Part shown: one piece after another, positions 2,245 to 38,315 of the stretch | Numbering within the stretch: the stretch's first letter is position 1 | How the letters are laid out: the number at the start of each line of letters is the position of its first letter | The notes under the pieces: generated by a model | What the model was told of the DNA's origin: nothing | Database searches by the model: none | What the model saw: the letters and a program-made list of their open reading frames with translations, nothing else | Position numbers and translations under genes: made by a program | From: Oscillospiraceae bacterium | Lineage (GTDB): Bacteria; Bacillota; Clostridia; Oscillospirales; Ruminococcaceae | Direction: 5' to 3' | Length of the DNA: 40,931 nucleotides | Assembly: GCA_028720105.1 (NCBI GenBank) | Contig: JAQYLI010000009.1 | Coordinates: forward strand, 1-40,931

Positions 2245-2871
2245 ATGAAAAATATAGTCGTACTTGTATCGGGCGGCGGAACCAATCTTCAAGCGCTTAT
2301 TGATGCCGAGAAAAGGGGAGAGATAAAGGGCGGAAAAATAACCTGCGTTATATCCTCCAAGGAGGGCGCTTATGCACTTGAGAGAGCTGCTCAGAACGGT
2401 ATAAAGGGCATTGTTCTTCCCCGAAAGGACTATGCCGACAGCCACGAATACAGCAAGGCAATGCTTGAAACCCTACAGGCGGAGAATGCGGACATCATAG
2501 TCTATGCAGGCTTTATGACCATTCTTGACGAGCAGGTATGCAGGGCGTACCCATACAAAATGGTGAATGTTCACCCCGCTCTCATTCCGTCCTTCTGCGG
2601 AAAGGGCTACTATGGGCTTAAAGTCCATGAGGAGGCTCTTGCAAGGGGCGTTAAGGTCACGGGAGCCACCGTCCATTTCGTCACCGAGGTCTGTGACGGA
2701 GGACCCATAATCCTGCAAAAAGCGGTGGAGATACAAAACGGCGACACCCCCGAAATACTCCAGCGCAGGGTAATGGAGCAGGCTGAATGGAAAATACTTC
2801 CCAAGGCAGTTTCCCTGCTCTGTGAAGATAAGATACGCATTGAAAACGGCGTTGCATACGCCGAAGAATAA
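2245..2871 (+). CDS. purN: Phosphoribosylglycinamide formyltransferase
   Basis: Transfers a formyl group from 10-formyl-THF to GAR, the third purine step. The protein is 208 residues. Visible motifs are VLVSGGGTNLQALI at the N-terminus, NADIIVYAGFMTIL near residue 80, the catalytic-region VNVHPALIPSF near 106 and GATVHFVTEVCDGGPII near 138, with the HxSLLP-type histidine seen as HPALIP. Two ATGs lie in frame (2239 and 2245). The second leaves about 10 nt to the GAAAGG site and gives the usual N-terminus MKNIVVLVSGGG, so it was chosen. The next gene starts 117 bp downstream after a structured leader. Confidence 0.95.
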   Translation: MKNIVVLVSGGGTNLQALIDAEKRGEIKGGKITCVISSKEGAYALERAAQNGIKGIVLPRKDYADSHEYSKAMLETLQAENADIIVYAGFMTILDEQVCRAYPYKMVNVHPALIPSFCGKGYYGLKVHEEALARGVKVTGATVHFVTEVCDGGPIILQKAVEIQNGDTPEILQRRVMEQAEWKILPKAVSLLCEDKIRIENGVAYAEE

Positions 2872-2888
2872 ATAATCCGAAAGGAATG

Positions 2889-2982
2889 TTTGAAAATCAA
2901 AGATTTTCAAACCGAGTTTTGTTTTTCAGTCTGCCGACTGAAATTTCCTTACGGAAACCACAAAACTCTCAGGAAAGGAAGG
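2889..2982 (+). promoter_or_regulatory. Structured leader element, copy 1 (before IMP cyclohydrolase)
   Basis: The leader contains four potential stems. The first is a perfect 10-bp hairpin at 2889-2911 (TTTGAAAATC / GATTTTCAAA, 3-nt loop). A closing stem pairs 2914-2922 with 2960-2968 (GAGTTTTGT / ACAAAACTC). It encloses an 8-bp hairpin at 2924-2943 with a TGCC loop and a 5-bp hairpin at 2944-2957 (TTTCC / GGAAA). A Shine-Dalgarno run follows at 2971-2982 and the ATG is at 2989. Nearly the same block precedes the aminotransferase at 8842, and a diverged one precedes the dehydrogenase at 37140. It could be a regulatory RNA, a translation-enhancing leader or a mobile repeat carrying a ribosome-binding site. 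Confidence 0.6.
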
Positions 2983-2988
2983 TAAAAA

Positions 2989-3714
2989 ATGAAAACATTA
3001 TCTCTCGAAAACGAGCTTAAATCAAACGCATACCCCGGCAGAGGAATAGTAATAGGCAGGTCTGCCGACGGAAAGACCGCCGTAACCGCCTATTTTATAA
3101 TGGGCAGAAGCGTTAATTCCCGCAATCGTGTATTCACCGAGACCGAGGACGGCATCAAGACCGAAGCCGCAGACCCCTCCAAGCTTTCCGACCCCCATCT
3201 TATCATCTACTCTCCCGTAAGAGTGCTTGGCAATAAGACCATCGTAACAAACGGCGACCAGACCGATACCATCTACGAGCTTATGGATAAGCAGCAGACC
3301 TTCGAGCAGTCCCTCAGAACCCGTGAATATGAGGACGACGCTCCCAACTACACCCCCAGGATCTCGGGCATTATGCATATCGGAAACGGGGAGTACAACT
3401 ATGCAATGTCAATCCTCAAGTCCGCAGACGGCAATCCCGACTGTCGCGAGAGATTTACATTCAGCTACTCTTCTCCTTTAAAGGGCATGGGACATTTTAT
3501 CCACACCTATATGGGCGACGGAAACCCTCTCCCCAGCTTCGAGGGCGAGCCGAAAAAGGTGGAAATTGGCAACGACAGCATTGACGCATTTGCGGATAAG
3601 CTGTGGAATGCTCTCAATGAGGACAACAAGGTCTCCCTTTTCGTAAGATATATCGACATTGCCACAGGCAAATACGAGTCCAGAATAATCAACAAGTACG
3701 CCAAGAGCGAATAA
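2989..3714 (+). CDS. IMP cyclohydrolase, PurO-like stand-alone enzyme
   Basis: Predicted to close FAICAR to IMP, the last step of purine synthesis. The 241-residue protein begins ELKSNAYPGRGIVIGRSADG and continues with YFIMGRSVNSRNRVF, which matches the stand-alone IMP cyclohydrolase family first known from archaeal PurO rather than the MGS-fold domain of bifunctional PurH. Its position directly before a formyltransferase that lacks that MGS-fold domain supports the assignment. The ATG at 2989 follows an AGGAAAGGAAGG site and a structured leader. The alternative is an uncharacterised Ntn-like fold protein, which is less likely given the context. Family is from memory; no structural check was made. 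Confidence 0.88.
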   Translation: MKTLSLENELKSNAYPGRGIVIGRSADGKTAVTAYFIMGRSVNSRNRVFTETEDGIKTEAADPSKLSDPHLIIYSPVRVLGNKTIVTNGDQTDTIYELMDKQQTFEQSLRTREYEDDAPNYTPRISGIMHIGNGEYNYAMSILKSADGNPDCRERFTFSYSSPLKGMGHFIHTYMGDGNPLPSFEGEPKKVEIGNDSIDAFADKLWNALNEDNKVSLFVRYIDIATGKYESRIINKYAKSE

Positions 3715-8522: not shown

Positions 8523-8742
8523 TGTATAACAGGTGCGTTATGATTTGATATAAACTGTAAATTCTTCAATTACACCCCTATTATATCTGTCCGCCATACA
8601 AGGACAATTGTGTATAAAGTGAAAACAATTTGACGGACTTTTTTAAAACGCTTGCAAAAGTCCGCCCAATGATATATTATATAATAAGGGAAAAATGCAG
8701 GAGTTACTGCTCCTGTGCTGAAAGATTTTGAAAGGGAGATTG

Positions 8743-8834
8743 TTTGAAAATCAGAGATTTTCAAACCGAGTTTTGTTTTTCGGTCTGCCGACCGGAATTT
8801 CCTTACGGAAACCACAAAACTCTCACGAAAGGAG
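8743..8834 (+). promoter_or_regulatory. Structured leader element, copy 2 (before the aminotransferase)
   Basis: This is the second copy of the leader at 2889. Stems are 8743-8752 with 8756-8765, closing stem 8768-8776 with 8114-offset partner at 8814-8822, hairpin 8778-8797 with the same TGCC loop, and hairpin 8798-8811. Compared with copy 1, the middle hairpin changes A-U to G-C (AGTC/GACT to GGTC/GACC), and a U-A pair becomes U-G, so pairing is kept. GAAAGGAG follows at 8827-8834 and the ATG is at 8842. The rest of the 319-bp gap (8523-8742) is AT-rich with a short CAGGAG/CTCCTG hairpin near 8699-8717. I could not place a convincing promoter in it. Confidence 0.6.
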
Positions 8835-8841
8835 TTTAATT

Positions 8842-10122
8842 ATGTCATTAAAGGATATGAACAAGGCTCAGCTTGAAGCCTTCAGAGACGAGTGTAAAAA
8901 GGAATACGAGGCTTTCAAGGCTCAGGGCTTGAAGCTTGATATGTCAAGAGGAAAGCCCTGCGCAGAGCAGCTTGAGCTTAGTATGCCAATGCTTGATGTG
9001 TTGAACAGCAAATCAAGCCTTATTGACGCAGACGGCGTTGACGTTCGCAACTACGGCTTCCTTACAGGCATTTCCGAGGCAAAAAAACTTTTTGCCGACC
9101 TTTTGGGCGTAACACCCGCAAACATCATCGTGGGCGGCAACTCCAGCCTTACCCTTATGTACGACTCCGTTGCAAGAGCAATGCAGTTCGGCGTTTACGG
9201 CAGCAAGAAGCCCTGGGGCAAGTGCGATAAGGTTAAATTTTTATGCCCCGTTCCCGGCTATGACCGCCACTTCTCCATCACTGAGACCTTCGGCGTTGAG
9301 ATGATAAACGTTCCTATGACCCCCGCAGGTCCCGATATGGATATGGTTGAGAAGCTTGTGTCAAGTGACCCCGAGATCAAGGGCATCTGGTGCGTTCCTA
9401 TGTACTCAAACCCCGACGGCTACACCTATTCCGACGAGACAGTAAAGCGCTTTGCCGCATTAAAGCCCGCCGCAGAGGATTTCAGAATTTTCTGGGACAA
9501 CGCATACTGCATACACCACCTCAAGGACGACCACGACAATATCCTCAACATCTTTGACGAGGCTAAGAAGTGCGGAAACGAGGATATGATATTCGAGTTT
9601 GCCTCAACCTCAAAGATAACCTTCCCCGGCGCTGGTGTTGCGGTAATGGCTGCCTCCGAGAACAATATCGCTCAGATAACAAAGCTCCTCGGTATGCAGA
9701 ACATCAGTTATGACAAGGTAAATCAGCTCCGCCACGTCCGCTATTTCAAGGACGCAGAGGGACTGAAGGCATATATGGAAAAGCACAAGGCTATCCTTGC
9801 GCCCAAGTTTGATATGGTAATAAATATGCTCACCGAAAAGCTGGGCGACCTTGATATCCTCAGCTGGAACGTTCCCAAGGGCGGCTACTTCATTTCCGTA
9901 AACACCTTGAACGGCTGTGCAAAGGAAGTTGCAAGGCTCTGCAAGGAGGGCGGCGTTGTCCTCACAGGCGCAGGAGCCACCTTCCCCTACAAGAAGGACC
10001 CCGAGGACAGAAATATCCGTCTCTCACCCTCCTATCCTCCCGTTGAAGACCTCCGCAAGGCAATGGAGCTTTTCTGCATATGCGTAAAGCTTGCCTCTGC
10101 CGAGAAGCTGCTTGCTGAATAA
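8842..10122 (+). CDS. PLP-dependent aminotransferase, probable aspartate aminotransferase
   Basis: A fold-type I aminotransferase of 426 residues. The N-terminus (LKLDMSRGKPCAEQLELSMP) and the segment VGGNSSLTLMYD are typical of the aspartate aminotransferase group represented by PF12897 (subgroup Ic). The PLP lysine is K258 in FASTSKITFPGAG, with the cofactor-binding FWDNAYCIHHL upstream near residue 215. The likely reaction is aspartate plus 2-oxoglutarate to oxaloacetate and glutamate. Substrate is inferred from family only. The start at 8842 follows GAAAGGAG; an upstream in-frame reading (GTG/ATG from 8728) runs through the structured leader and was rejected. Confidence 0.88.
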   Translation: MSLKDMNKAQLEAFRDECKKEYEAFKAQGLKLDMSRGKPCAEQLELSMPMLDVLNSKSSLIDADGVDVRNYGFLTGISEAKKLFADLLGVTPANIIVGGNSSLTLMYDSVARAMQFGVYGSKKPWGKCDKVKFLCPVPGYDRHFSITETFGVEMINVPMTPAGPDMDMVEKLVSSDPEIKGIWCVPMYSNPDGYTYSDETVKRFAALKPAAEDFRIFWDNAYCIHHLKDDHDNILNIFDEAKKCGNEDMIFEFASTSKITFPGAGVAVMAASENNIAQITKLLGMQNISYDKVNQLRHVRYFKDAEGLKAYMEKHKAILAPKFDMVINMLTEKLGDLDILSWNVPKGGYFISVNTLNGCAKEVARLCKEGGVVLTGAGATFPYKKDPEDRNIRLSPSYPPVEDLRKAMELFCICVKLASAEKLLAE

Positions 10123-10137
10123 GTTTAGTATCAAAAA

Positions 10138-10175
10138 ATGCGGCTGTCTCCGATATTTTTCGGGGACAGCCGCAT
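10138..10175 (+). terminator. Long inverted repeat after the aminotransferase
   Basis: A 16-bp stem with one G-U pair, starting ATGCGGCTGTCTCCGA, begins 15 bp after the stop codon. No T-run follows on the + strand. An A-run precedes it, so it would read as a classic terminator only on the - strand. It also borders the repeat at 10176. Confidence 0.5.
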
Positions 10176-10274
10176 CGTGTCGCTGAACCCGCTTCGTTGG
10201 AAAGGTAGAAATATTTTTCTTGTTTTGCGGTTCGTAACGTAAGTATTGAATCCAAATTCTGTAATTATTTTTTT
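10176..10274 (+). repeat. Intergenic repeat, related to 33612-33712 in inverted orientation
   Basis: The block starts CGTGTCGCTGAACCCGCTTC and contains TTTTTCTTGTTTTG and CGTAACGTAAGTATTGAA. Read on the opposite strand, 33612-33712 matches it along about 100 bp with few differences. The peptides it could encode are probably fortuitous. It shares short blocks (TCGTTG, CGGTAAC-like) with the repeat families at 27453 and 38650. Confidence 0.6.
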
Positions 10275-10284
10275 CAAAAAACAC

Positions 10285-10313
10285 TTGACAAAAGAAATAA
10301 TAAATGATATAAT
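10285..10313 (+). promoter_or_regulatory. Consensus sigma-A promoter for the cation-efflux unit
   Basis: TTGACA at 10285-10290, a 17-bp spacer and TATAAT at 10308-10313 match both hexamers exactly. Transcription would start near 10320, just before the candidate riboswitch. Confidence 0.88.
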
Positions 10314-10339
10314 AGTCAAAATCATAAAACTCTTTGCAC

Positions 10340-10466
10340 TGCATACCAATCTACAGTACAAACTGAACAGACAGGAGCGTTGCTCCCAGTCGGGTCACGA
10401 CAGTGACAGTGGAAATTCACACCCACGGGACAGTAGTTACAAATTACTGGTTTCGGGGGTGTTTTT
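10340..10466 (+). promoter_or_regulatory. Candidate NiCo (czcD) riboswitch with terminator
   Basis: The leader between the promoter and the efflux gene folds into several short helices. They include GGAGC/GCTCC (about 10375-10387), GTCAC/GTGAC (about 10395-10408) and GTGG/CCAC, and end in CGGGACAGT, which can pair back to ACTG near 10361. An overlapping alternative stem at 10429-10462 (ACACCC, CGGGA and CAGTA pairing with TACTG, TTTCG and GGGTGT) runs straight into TTTTT at 10462-10466. The two folds are mutually exclusive, as expected for an ON switch. The repeated ACAG/GGGACAG blocks and the CDF gene downstream fit the Ni/Co-sensing class, but the consensus was recalled, not aligned. Confidence 0.62.
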
Positions 10467-33575: not shown

Positions 33576-33742
33576 ACAGTCTGTGGAAAAAGCTTAAAGC
33601 TTGAACCAAATAAAAAAACTGATTACAAGATTTGGCTTCAATACTTACGTTACCGAGCCACAAAACAAGAAAATTATTTCTATTTTTGCAACGAGGTGGC
33701 TTCAGCGACACGCTGATCCGCCCTGCCATATGACAGGACGGA
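33576..33742. repeat. Intergenic repeat flanked by two near-identical palindromes
   Basis: Palindromes at 33550-33575 and 33717-33742 (23 of 26 bases identical) flank a block whose 33612-33712 part is an inverted relative of 10176-10274 and contains GTTACCGAGCC. The 452-bp gap between pullulanase and purB otherwise holds the pullulanase promoter and AT-rich DNA; no gene is seen. Confidence 0.6.
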
Positions 33743-33753
33743 AACTCATTTTA

Positions 33754-35190
33754 TTATACGTTTATCTCGGCGGACTCGTGGGTAAGGTCTTTGTACTTTT
33801 CAAGCACGGGCTTTACGCACTCCTCCAGGAACTCAGTGACCTGCTCGGAGCTTCTTCCCGTATAGTTTTCGGGAACGAGGACTGCTTCGATATCCTCACG
33901 CTTGAGACCGAAGGAGGGGTCTGCAAGGATACGCTCGATAAGGTCGTTTTCGAGACCCTCTTCCTTCACCTGCTTGCCGGCTTCCATTGCGTAGGTGCGT
34001 ATCTTCTCGTGAAGCTCCTGACGGTTGCCGCCCTTCTTAACGGCGTCCATCATAATGTTTTCCGAAGCCATAAAGGGAAGCTCTCTCATTATTCTCTGGC
34101 GTATTACCTTGGGATATACAACGGGATTTGCGGTCACGTTTATCATAATGTTAAGAATAGCGTCGCAGGCAAGGAAGCCCTCGGCAACGGAAATTCTCTT
34201 GTTTGCTGAGTCATCAAGAGTTCTCTCGAACCACTGTGTGCCCGAGGTGAATGCGGGGTTAAGAGTGTCGATGATAAGGTATCTTGCAAGGGCGGTTATT
34301 CTCTCGCAGCGCATAGGATTTCTCTTGTAGGGCATTGCGGAGGAACCGATCTGATTTTTCTCAAAGGGCTCTTCCATTTCCTTGAAGTTCTGGAGTATTC
34401 TCATATCGTTGGCAAACTTCATTGCGGACTGGGCGATATTTCCGAGAGTATTTACTATCTGTGAGTCTATCTTTCTGGAATAGGTCTGACCCGAAACGGG
34501 TACAACAGCGTCAAAGCCCATTTCCTCGGCGATCATTCTCTCAAGCTCCTTGACCTTTGAGGAGTCGCCCTCGAACAGCTCCTTGAATGAAGCCTGTGTG
34601 CCTGTGGTGCCCTTGGAGCCTAAAAGCTTCAGGTTCTTTATTCTGTACTCAAGCTCGTCAAGGTCCATAAGCAGCTCGTTTATCCAGAGAGTTGCTCTCT
34701 TGCCCACAGTGGTGAGCTGGGCGGGCTGGAGGTGGGTGTATGCCAGAGCAGGCATATCCTTATACTTCTCGGCAAAGTCGGAAAGCTGTGCGATAACGGT
34801 GACAAGCTTCTTGAGGATTACCTGCATTGCGTCTCTCATAACGATGATGTCGGTATTGTCGCCCACGTAGCAGGAGGTTGCGCCAAGGTGGATTATTCCT
34901 GCTGCCTTGGGGCACGCCTGTCCGTAGGTGTAGACGTGAGCCATTACGTCGTGGCGAACCAGCTTCTCACGCTCTGCGGCGCACTCGTAGTCGATATTGT
35001 CGATATTTGCCTCAAGCTCGTCCACCTGCTCCTGTGTTACGGGGAGACCGAGCTTCATTTCCGCTCTTGCAAGAGCCACCCAGAGACGGCGCCAGGTGGT
35101 AAATTTCTTGTCGGCGGAGAAAATATACTGCATTTCCTTGCTTGCATACCTTGTGCAGAAGGGGGATTCGTAGGTGCTTGTATCCTTCAT
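33754..35190 (-). CDS. purB: Adenylosuccinate lyase
   Basis: Removes fumarate from SAICAR and from adenylosuccinate, so it serves both IMP and AMP synthesis. The 478-residue length suits the family. Motifs: GIIHLGATSCYVGDNTDI with the catalytic His region near 100, TYTHLQPAQ-like YTHLQPAQLTTVGKR near 155, and the signature GSSAMPYKRNPMRCE near 287 with the mobile-loop serines. It stands alone, away from the pur operon, with its own consensus promoter. The ATG follows GAAAGGATGTAAATAACA. Some clostridial PurB are slightly shorter; nothing is missing here. Confidence 0.96.
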   Translation of the reverse strand: MKDTSTYESPFCTRYASKEMQYIFSADKKFTTWRRLWVALARAEMKLGLPVTQEQVDELEANIDNIDYECAAEREKLVRHDVMAHVYTYGQACPKAAGIIHLGATSCYVGDNTDIIVMRDAMQVILKKLVTVIAQLSDFAEKYKDMPALAYTHLQPAQLTTVGKRATLWINELLMDLDELEYRIKNLKLLGSKGTTGTQASFKELFEGDSSKVKELERMIAEEMGFDAVVPVSGQTYSRKIDSQIVNTLGNIAQSAMKFANDMRILQNFKEMEEPFEKNQIGSSAMPYKRNPMRCERITALARYLIIDTLNPAFTSGTQWFERTLDDSANKRISVAEGFLACDAILNIMINVTANPVVYPKVIRQRIMRELPFMASENIMMDAVKKGGNRQELHEKIRTYAMEAGKQVKEEGLENDLIERILADPSFGLKREDIEAVLVPENYTGRSSEQVTEFLEECVKPVLEKYKDLTHESAEINV

Positions 35191-37009: not shown

Positions 37010-37038
37010 TTGAAAATTTTTCCGTATCGTGTTATTAT
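37010..37038 (+). promoter_or_regulatory. Promoter for the iron alcohol dehydrogenase
   Basis: TTGAAA at 37010-37015, a 17-bp spacer and TATTAT at 37033-37038. The expected leader of about 95 nt contains the third leader element. Confidence 0.72.
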
Positions 37039-37062
37039 ATATAATAATATATATAGACTTTC

Positions 37063-37128
37063 GAGCTTTGTTTTTTGTTCTGTCCGCAGGCATTTCCCTG
37101 CGGAAAACAAACACCTCTCGGGAAAGGA
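37063..37128 (+). promoter_or_regulatory. Structured leader element, copy 3 (before the alcohol dehydrogenase)
   Basis: A diverged copy of the leader at 2914 and 8768. The order GAG-TTTGT / ACAAA-CTC closing stem, short middle hairpin (CTG-TCCG-CAG) and TTTCC / GGAAA hairpin (37093-37106) is kept. The GGAAA hairpin loop changes to CTGC. The first TTTGAAAATC hairpin is absent. A GGGAAAGGAC ribosome site follows and the ATG is at 37140. Confidence 0.5.
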
Positions 37129-37139
37129 CGATCATATTT

Positions 37140-38315
37140 ATGTACGATTTTGTATATCATAATACCACGAAGATCATTTTCGGCAAAAATTCGATGGAGA
37201 GTATCGGCAGGGAAGCCGCTCTTTACGGCAAGGCTATGCTGGTTTTCGGCGGCGGCTCCGTAAGGGAAAACGGCGTTTATGACAAGACCGTTGCTTCTCT
37301 TAAAGAAAACGGTGTGGACTACTGCCAGCTGTGGGGCGTAAAGCCTAATCCCGGGATCAGCAAGGTCAGAGAGGGCATCAGTATGGCAAGGAACGAGGGA
37401 GTTTCCCTTATTCTTGCGGTGGGCGGCGGCAGCGTTATCGACACTGCCAAGGCAATTGCCGCAGGCGTGCCCTACGAGGGTGACCCCTGGGACTTTTACG
37501 GCAGCGCAAAGGCTCCCGAAATTGCTCTTCCTGTGGGAGTTGTTCTCACAATTCCTGCGGCAGGCTCGGAATGTTCTATGTCCTCGGTCATAAGCAACGA
37601 GGAGACCTGCGAAAAGCTAGGCTGTACCGCCGAATGTTTCCTTCCCCGCTTTGCGGTGATGGATCCTCAGAATACATACACCCTCCCTGCCTATCAGACT
37701 GCCTGCGGCGCTTCGGATATGCTGGCTCATCTGATGGAGAGATATTTTGTAAGAACCGAGTGCTGCGACCTTACCGACAGGCTCATTGAGGGAGCGGCTC
37801 AGACGGTGATTGAATTTGCTCCGAAGGCTCTTGCTGACCCCGAAAATTACGATGTAAGGGCTGAGCTTATGTGGACGGGCTGTATCGCTCACTGCGACAT
37901 TCTCGACCGCGGCAGGGGAGAAAACGGCAGAGGCGGAGACTGGGCTTCACATCAGCTTGAACATCAGCTTTCCGCATTTTACGACATCGCTCACGGAGCA
38001 GGGCTGGCGGTCATTTTCCCTGTGTGGCTTAAATTCGTTTCGGAAAAGGACCCTTCCAAGCCTGCACAGTTCGGCAGACGGGTTTTCGGGATTACGGGAC
38101 TTTCGGACGGGGAGACTGCTTTGAAAATGATATCCTGTCTTGAGGACTTCTATCGCGCGCTCTCTCTTCCCGTGAAACTGTCGGAAATAGGTATCGGCAG
38201 CGAAAATTTTGACGAAATGGCAAAAAGAGCCGTTCTTGCTAAGCGCGGAAAGCTGGGTTCATACGTAAGGCTTACCGCTGAGGACGTTAAGCAGATTTAT
38301 ACACTTGCAAAGTAA
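37140..38315 (+). CDS. Iron-containing alcohol dehydrogenase, butanol dehydrogenase-like
   Basis: NAD(P)H-dependent aldehyde reductase/alcohol dehydrogenase of 391 residues. The nucleotide-binding motif is LAVGGGSVIDTAKAIA near residue 95. Metal-binding region residues are seen in CGASDMLAHLMERYF near 195 (Asp and His) and SHQLEHQLSAFYDIAHGAGLA near 265 (two His). Close to the BdhA/YqhD-like group. A role in regenerating NAD(P)+ in fermentation is inferred. The longer in-frame reading from 37029 crosses the promoter and leader and was rejected. Confidence 0.92.
   Translation: MYDFVYHNTTKIIFGKNSMESIGREAALYGKAMLVFGGGSVRENGVYDKTVASLKENGVDYCQLWGVKPNPGISKVREGISMARNEGVSLILAVGGGSVIDTAKAIAAGVPYEGDPWDFYGSAKAPEIALPVGVVLTIPAAGSECSMSSVISNEETCEKLGCTAECFLPRFAVMDPQNTYTLPAYQTACGASDMLAHLMERYFVRTECCDLTDRLIEGAAQTVIEFAPKALADPENYDVRAELMWTGCIAHCDILDRGRGENGRGGDWASHQLEHQLSAFYDIAHGAGLAVIFPVWLKFVSEKDPSKPAQFGRRVFGITGLSDGETALKMISCLEDFYRALSLPVKLSEIGIGSENFDEMAKRAVLAKRGKLGSYVRLTAEDVKQIYTLAK

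Follow-up and report, generated by a model that had tools for sequence, protein, structure and literature searches.

REP elements are hairpin-bearing, orientation-specific repeats that are mobilized by RAYT/Y1 (IS200/IS605-type) transposases, leave no clear target duplication and lie mostly 3' of genes. Other small repeats can also be compared with what we describe here. The BOX, RUP and SPRITE repeats of pneumococci are MITE-like small interspersed repeats, as set out in the part of the source used here (PMC3049150). In marine Beggiatoaceae, TAACTGA heptamers form 7-nt direct repeats at a place overlapping the expected Shine-Dalgarno sequence (SD), and an SD is also present in only about 10% of the TAACTGA regions, according to the excerpt drawn on (PMC4679880).

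We analyzed a stretch of 40,931 nucleotides from an Oscillospiraceae bacterium (the window), in which a similar block precedes several genes. We favor, with a probability of roughly 0.7, the reading that this block belongs to a new family of small, dispersed, MITE-like structured elements that strongly prefers the spacer between SD and start codon and does not mark a regulon. The element has spread through one clade of a genus of gut Oscillospiraceae, in one orientation and before many unrelated genes. Like BOX, RUP and SPRITE in the excerpted account, it is typically <200 bp long, has many copies per genome, is structured when transcribed and has a narrow taxonomic range, and it has the modular inner part of BOX (PMC3049150). 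In contrast to BOX and RUP, it has no evident terminal inverted repeats or target duplications, and neither a preference for SD-start spacers nor a carried SD is described for BOX, RUP or SPRITE in that excerpt (PMC3049150). The TAACTGA repeats, as excerpted, share its mostly uniform orientation, its location immediately upstream of start codons and its lack of a functional gene pattern; the likeness is one of position only, since the present element is a folded unit of ~95 bp that adds a second SD and does not displace the native one (PMC4679880). Our literature search, mainly outside subscription journals, found no paper on such elements among the matches listed.

Copies in the window and their predicted fold

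Three copies and the genes that follow them were placed in the window as follows.

2879..2885, + strand: native SD of the IMP cyclohydrolase gene (GAAAGGA), 5' of copy 1
2888..2982, + strand: element copy 1 (model R1, 115.3 bits, E 4.3e-18; parts from the MFE fold), with a 5' hairpin at 2888-2912, an outer stem pairing 2914-2922 with 2960-2968, inner hairpins at 2924-2943 and 2944-2957, and then the SD tail
2971..2979, + strand: second SD, borne by copy 1 (AGGAAAGGA), 9 nt 5' of the ATG at 2989 and unpaired in the fold
2989..3714, + strand: IMP cyclohydrolase (PurO-like) gene, 3' of copy 1 (NCBIfam NF003167, E 3e-14, and TIGR01922, E 4.3e-13, both below the curated cut-offs)
8731..8739, + strand: native SD of the aminotransferase gene (AAAGGGAGA), 5' of copy 2
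8742..8836, + strand: element copy 2 (R1, 110.8 bits, E 3.0e-17; parts from the MFE fold), with a 5' hairpin at 8742-8766, an outer stem pairing 8768-8776 with 8814-8822, two inner hairpins and an SD tail
8827..8834, + strand: second SD, borne by copy 2 (GAAAGGAG), unpaired in the fold
8842..10122, + strand: aspartate aminotransferase (type Ic) gene, 3' of copy 2 (NCBIfam NF053594, 661.9 bits, above the cut-off of 435)
37063..37131, + strand: degenerate copy 3, which lacks the 5' hairpin (R1, 30.3 bits, E 0.04 over the genome), with a hairpin at 37084-37103 and an SD tail at 37122-37128
37140..38315, + strand: iron-containing alcohol dehydrogenase gene, 3' of copy 3 (best NCBIfam match NF011717, E 2.5e-80, below its cut-off)

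Copies 1 and 2 are near-identical, and each ends in a ribosome-binding site just 5' of its gene. In the MFE RNA fold of both, a GAGUUUUGU/ACAAAACUC stem encloses two hairpins, an additional perfect 11-bp hairpin (from 2888 and from 8742) stands 5' of this stem, and the core of the downstream SD is left unpaired. The fold of copy 1 reaches -35.6 kcal/mol (z -3.7, with none of 200 shuffles as good) and that of copy 2 reaches -33.5 kcal/mol (z -2.3, 7 of 200 as good). Copy 3 has a fold of its own at -25.3 kcal/mol (z -2.4, 3 of 200 as good) from which the GAG...CTC stem is absent; its likeness to the family lies in the 3' tail and one GC-rich hairpin. At the orthologous site in G018, a close relative, the SD tail is preserved and there is no stem. 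Thus the first-pass annotation, which had proposed a repeated block 5' of three genes with a shared stem around two hairpins, is right about copies 1 and 2, with the interval of copy 1 correct to within one base; copy 3 is a degenerate match whose own fold does not show the stem.

Across the family, the common architecture is a 5' hairpin followed by an outer stem, usually around two hairpins, and, in the genus of the window, by a 3' SD tail. The inner part is variable and contains none, one, two or three hairpins of varying length. Most elements measure 60-115 bp, typically 95.

The pairing covaries. A structure-blind MAFFT alignment of 18 copies, evaluated at 33 pairs, has changes on both sides in 10 pairs and 40 cells, against 6.3 and 14.7 when shuffled; by one of the five covariation measures, the number of pair types, this set does not exceed its shuffles (82 of 500 as high). 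When 69 matches are fitted to the model, a fit that leans towards structure, both-side changes appear in 25 of the 33 pairs and 207 cells (shuffled, 10.3 and 50.2). In this second set 95.5% of the cells are paired, no slid control comes close, and all four helices contribute. Covariation in a genome-wide alignment had been named beforehand as a test of the structure, and it is abundant; the compensatory change noted earlier in the middle hairpin of copy 2 is real and general in both sets. The paired cells are mostly Watson-Crick, and G-U cells are about twice as frequent as A-C cells (41 versus 22), a mild sign of constraint on the transcribed strand. The near-perfect palindromes and the Watson-Crick excess fit a role at the level of DNA equally well, so the element may fold as DNA or as RNA.

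Distribution of the element

A BLAST search of the window's own genome (G000) gave 22 matches. R1, a covariance model built from 18 copies, gives 34 rows there: 26 sense copies and eight weak rows (E 0.1 to 0.9) that overlap or adjoin known copies, seven of them on the opposite strand, the pattern of a palindromic hairpin. Among 61 genomes (its own and 60 relatives, each a single assembly per species and some incomplete), R1 finds seven carriers, all of the same genus. The six other carriers hold 49 matches: 20 in G018, 11 in G004, 10 in G011 (array units included), four in G012, three in G002 and one in G007. The genus set contains 75 copies, which remain from 92 matches after 17 on the opposite strand of a copy are removed; in it the start of copy 3 was moved from 37033 to 37047, and 74 of the 75 were scored for position, one being at a contig end.

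A second model, R2, was made from 69 matches and applied more widely in two large searches with stricter filters, in which weak matches are lost. At E <=0.001 it matches 16 of 197 genomes of the family, the window's own included; the 15 further genomes come from 11 other genera. At E <=0.0001 in an order-wide sample, it matches 4 of 295 genomes, again including the window's own, and two of the three others lie in the family and one outside it. A scan of named genomes provided 57 stretches, in which R1 finds 15 copies (E <1e-9) in five MAGs and one weak match (E 0.04) in a sixth. With regard to a phage-borne origin, the exact motif occurs in 11 stretches of viral contigs, and none of these has an R1 match at E <=0.1.

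Copies in other genera have the same architecture with a sequence of their own. For example, in G219, G076, G153 and others, they mostly follow an SD-like stretch and precede a start codon (by eye), and most G219 copies apparently have a further small hairpin between the second SD and the start codon (also by eye). The copies of G233, G223, G155 and G104, and part of those of G134 and G117, lack the SD and are not before start codons. Of 66 matches in the wider family, 60 were used for scoring: 41 of these precede the start of a 40-codon ORF (36 with ATG), some of them, as in G233, perhaps by chance, and anti-SD duplexes of <=-6 kcal/mol lie just 5' of 31, compared to 3 to 12 in the windows further upstream. 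Flanks are alike within a genome for L283 and L329 (in G155, which also holds the SD-less copy L328) and for L280, L307 and L308 (in G117), so these SD-less copies may travel with a longer repeat. The simplest history would be that a structured dispersed element gained an SD tail and thereby became tolerated in SD-start spacers.

Position between the native SD and the start codon

Within the genus, most copies stand directly before a gene. Sixty-five of the 74 scored copies are in the sense orientation with a start codon <=45 nt downstream that opens an ORF of >=40 codons; the start is ATG for 62 of these, and one of the 65 is an array unit (L174:701, TTG). The nine others are five array units of G011 and the copies L067, L019, L166 and L063, where an ATG follows and the ORF is <40 codons long. 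The gene 3' of the L063 copy (in G002) may be broken, since its ORF starts out resembling an acetyltransferase and runs into two stops after 29 codons. Random positions or orientations relative to genes, named in the first-pass annotation as grounds for abandoning an RNA leader, are thus not what the genus presents; in the wider family they are partly found, among the SD-less copies of several genera.

The sequence just 5' of the element also resembles an SD. Over the 74 copies, the 16 nt that adjoin the element on its 5' side pair with the anti-SD at a mean of -6.5 kcal/mol, compared to means of -2.2 to -2.6 kcal/mol in four windows further upstream. A duplex of <=-6 kcal/mol is present just 5' of 40 of the 74 copies and in 8 to 10 of 74 in each of the windows further upstream. 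This strong pairing, together with the SD in the tail, indicates that most copies are flanked by two SDs. The distance from the SD to the element is about 3 to 10 nt, and both junctions are imprecise.

Orthologous sites without the element tell which of the two SDs is native. We collected orthologues of two window genes and, with one joined query of 36 gene starts, of the genes at 32 further copies; 40 sites, chosen (mostly as the best) among the matches listed, were aligned. In these 40 and six more sequences from the window genes, R2 finds nothing better than E 0.04, with two weak matches (L249 and L230). The IMP cyclohydrolase orthologues of G002, G004 and G006 lack the element and have GAAAGGAC adjoining the start codon; the SD of G006 corresponds to that left of the element, and G002 and G004 score as ties. 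Similarly, the element-free aminotransferase alleles of G004 and G006 have GAAAGGGAGAAT just 5' of the ATG and were scored left, and G002 was a tie. The G004 gene reads GAAAGGGAGAATATTATG, and in G000, G018 and G012 the same gene has a like SD, then the element, then a second SD, and then the ATG. In another pair of alleles, G000 reads gaaggagaaaatataaATGGCAGAA and G018 reads gaaggagatat-[element]-aATGGCAGAA. Over the 32 loci that were scored, the element-free SD matches the 5' side at 20, ties at seven and matches the 3' side at five; two more loci could not be placed. By eye, the start had been mis-assigned by the script at three of the five 3'-side loci (L023, L027 and L151), and at the other two (L052 and copy 3) the relatives keep parts of the element. 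Element-free sites thus show that the usual place of the element is the spacer 3' of the native SD, which remains upstream while the element contributes another.

We propose that a copy would enter between the SD and the start codon and would thereby cut the gene off from its ribosome-binding site. In this genus, the 3' end of the element would act as a ready-made SD with its spacer (GAAAGGAATGGTCATAA), and ribosomes could use this new SD. Since the tail brings a replacement, the gene can probably still be translated. The fold would keep the element's own sequence out of the way and the new SD open, and the old SD would stay upstream, possibly as a standby site for the ribosome. The second SD is probably the one in use. 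The element is present before genes of the SecA, tRNA-synthetase and PdxS families, which argues that translation continues. A mobile element that lands between SD and start codon would be expected to do some of the worst damage, yet this is where most copies of the genus are found, with genes that mostly look intact. If the proposal is right, it shows a small element evolving to be tolerated at start sites, the paired filled and empty alleles are a natural experiment on standby sites and SD spacing, and the case warns against annotating such leaders as regulons or riboswitches.

Turnover, mobility and alternative explanations

Close relatives share few of their copies. Among the matches listed, the loci of the 26 copies of G000 are filled in G018 at six, degenerate at one, without stems at 16 and without an orthologue at three; in the other direction, of the 20 copies in G018, 12 are absent from G000, six are shared and two were not placed. 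Sixteen of 26 loci being stemless in a close relative (among the matches listed) indicates that copies turn over fast. At two of the 16 sites (L233 and L241) an apparent SD tail survives in G018, and to judge from the sequence these are perhaps remnants left by deletion. In addition, G011 contains head-to-tail tandem arrays of ~90-bp units without the SD tail, at the following positions.

L173, 3-418: array of the SD-less variant
L174, 701-877: array of the SD-less variant
L171, 470-563: array of the SD-less variant

At L173, a unit can be read as an ORF of 30 codons with its TGA overlapping the ATG that follows (by eye), and the array stops shortly 5' of a DegV-like gene.

The genes behind the copies are unrelated, as the first-pass annotation had it. 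Of 26 downstream genes, 20 were scanned against Pfam, the three window genes were assigned by NCBIfam, and those at L018, L019 and L052 were left out. Pfam families were found in 18 of the 20 proteins, all different in kind, and none in two. The families include FeoB, SecA, PdxS, a class I tRNA synthetase, a GH10 hydrolase, a sulfate permease and DivIVA.

Of the earlier suggestions, these results favor that of a mobile repeat supplying a ribosome site, through the element-free orthologous sites and the low sharing between close relatives, and further through the tandem arrays, the unrelated downstream genes and the SD in the 3' tail. The element behaves like a MITE-type small repeat, with many short, similar copies at unrelated loci and empty sites in relatives, yet by eye its two ends are not inverted repeats of each other, and no terminal inverted repeats and no regular target-site duplication (L022 and L023 being possible exceptions) were seen. 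Likewise, no fixed target tetra- or pentanucleotide was found by eye at the left end, where the 5' junctions and the distance to the SD vary. We infer that copies move as DNA and that their target is an SD-like, purine-rich sequence. One copy departs from the usual position: at L011 the element follows GGAAAGATAA and is still 5' of the gene's real SD (by eye). This purine-rich stretch other than the gene's SD favors a sequence target, although a single case is thin. The observed position can come from an SD-like DNA target or from selection against copies at other sites, and its strictness could also reflect selection for function instead of targeting.

The element could be aimed at translation-initiation regions, with its own SD letting the host gene survive and the SD-less copies representing an ancestral, untargeted form. 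An SD-like sequence might then be recognized in DNA, or through a transcript or ribosome-bound intermediate, which would result in entry in one orientation. We regard this more specific proposal as tentative and somewhat doubtful. The mobilizer class that was searched, Y1 transposases (PF01797), occurs in two of 20 genomes of the genus, the carrier G011 and G017, and is absent from the six other carriers (G000, G018, G004, G012, G002 and G007), several of whose assemblies are incomplete. The present element resembles REPs in its hairpins, its orientation specificity and its lack of a clear target duplication, and differs from them in that six of seven carriers are without Y1 and in its SD-spacer position, as opposed to the 3' location of REPs. 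A satellite of a Y1 transposase (REP/RAYT or an IS200/IS605 derivative) was considered and is unsupported.

The sense orientation directly before start codons (65 of 74), the conserved fold with its compensatory changes and the SD inside the element would also be expected of a cis-regulatory RNA, a riboswitch or protein-binding leader whose stem-loops sense a signal, expose or hide the second SD and control a regulon at translation. We consider this unlikely. The downstream genes have no pathway in common, 16 of 26 loci have no element in the close relative (among the matches listed), copies 1 and 2 fold with the core of the second SD left single-stranded, and none of the copies attains the gathering score of an Rfam family. 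With inner hairpins that differ in number and length between copies, a conserved pocket cannot be seen. The single match at gathering score in the whole window is a NiCo riboswitch at 10353-10435; at E <=1, positions 2700-3100 have only TD-2, on the minus strand with 22.1 bits against a cut-off of 48.7. Seven loci of the family gave six Rfam matches, all below cut-off, the best being ncS025 (E 0.0083) and TD-2 (E 0.12), over copies and on the minus strand. The riboswitch-like control of carbon and nitrogen metabolism that had been suggested thus finds no support in the mixed genes, the Rfam scores or the loci, most of which are not conserved, and a riboswitch or regulon was set aside for want of both an Rfam match over threshold and gene coherence. 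Position and orientation are equally what one would expect if selection had kept a copied enhancer of translation or mRNA stability, in which a structured leader with a fresh SD raises expression, and the copies before SecA-, PdxS- and aminotransferase-family genes agree with it. We suspect that this is improbable too, if marginally less so than regulation: loci turn over fast between close relatives, and beneficial selection alone would not clear neutral insertions elsewhere, whereas the only scored copies of the genus without a 40-codon-ORF start are the five array units and the four with shorter ORFs.

It is very improbable that the element encodes a leader peptide, with the native SD driving a short ORF translationally coupled to the gene. 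At many 5' junctions an ATG or TTG does arise, suitably spaced from the native SD, and the L173 array units with their ATGA overlaps (by eye) have the form of such ORFs. However, in 61 copies (those remaining once L171, L173, L174, L067, L019 and copies lacking a clear ATG were set aside), frames from the 5' end of the element stop at scattered places, and the frame is open into and in phase with the gene in eight. The frames are not conserved, and the lengths of the inner loops differ by amounts that are not multiples of three. The first-pass annotation had already found no conserved in-frame peptide, and the leader peptide was ruled out on these frames.

Other features of the window and its genome were seen in passing. 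The NiCo riboswitch (Rfam RF02683, 60.4 bits, + strand) is 5' of an ORF that, from its translation, looks like a cation-efflux transporter. Two ORFs of the window, at 10024-10344 (- strand) and 33601-34209 (+ strand), have in common the translated stretch EPQNKK.IS.F.T...QRH, which suggests another dispersed repeat. Lastly, a second, palindromic dispersed repeat of 165 bp is nested inside one copy of the element (L021 2826-2990, - strand, contig C13). Six copies in the genome are close to full length, and two of the six lie at contig ends; of the three other further copies, one lies ~9 nt from an ATG-started ORF on the opposite strand and one lies ~18 nt from a TTG-started ORF.
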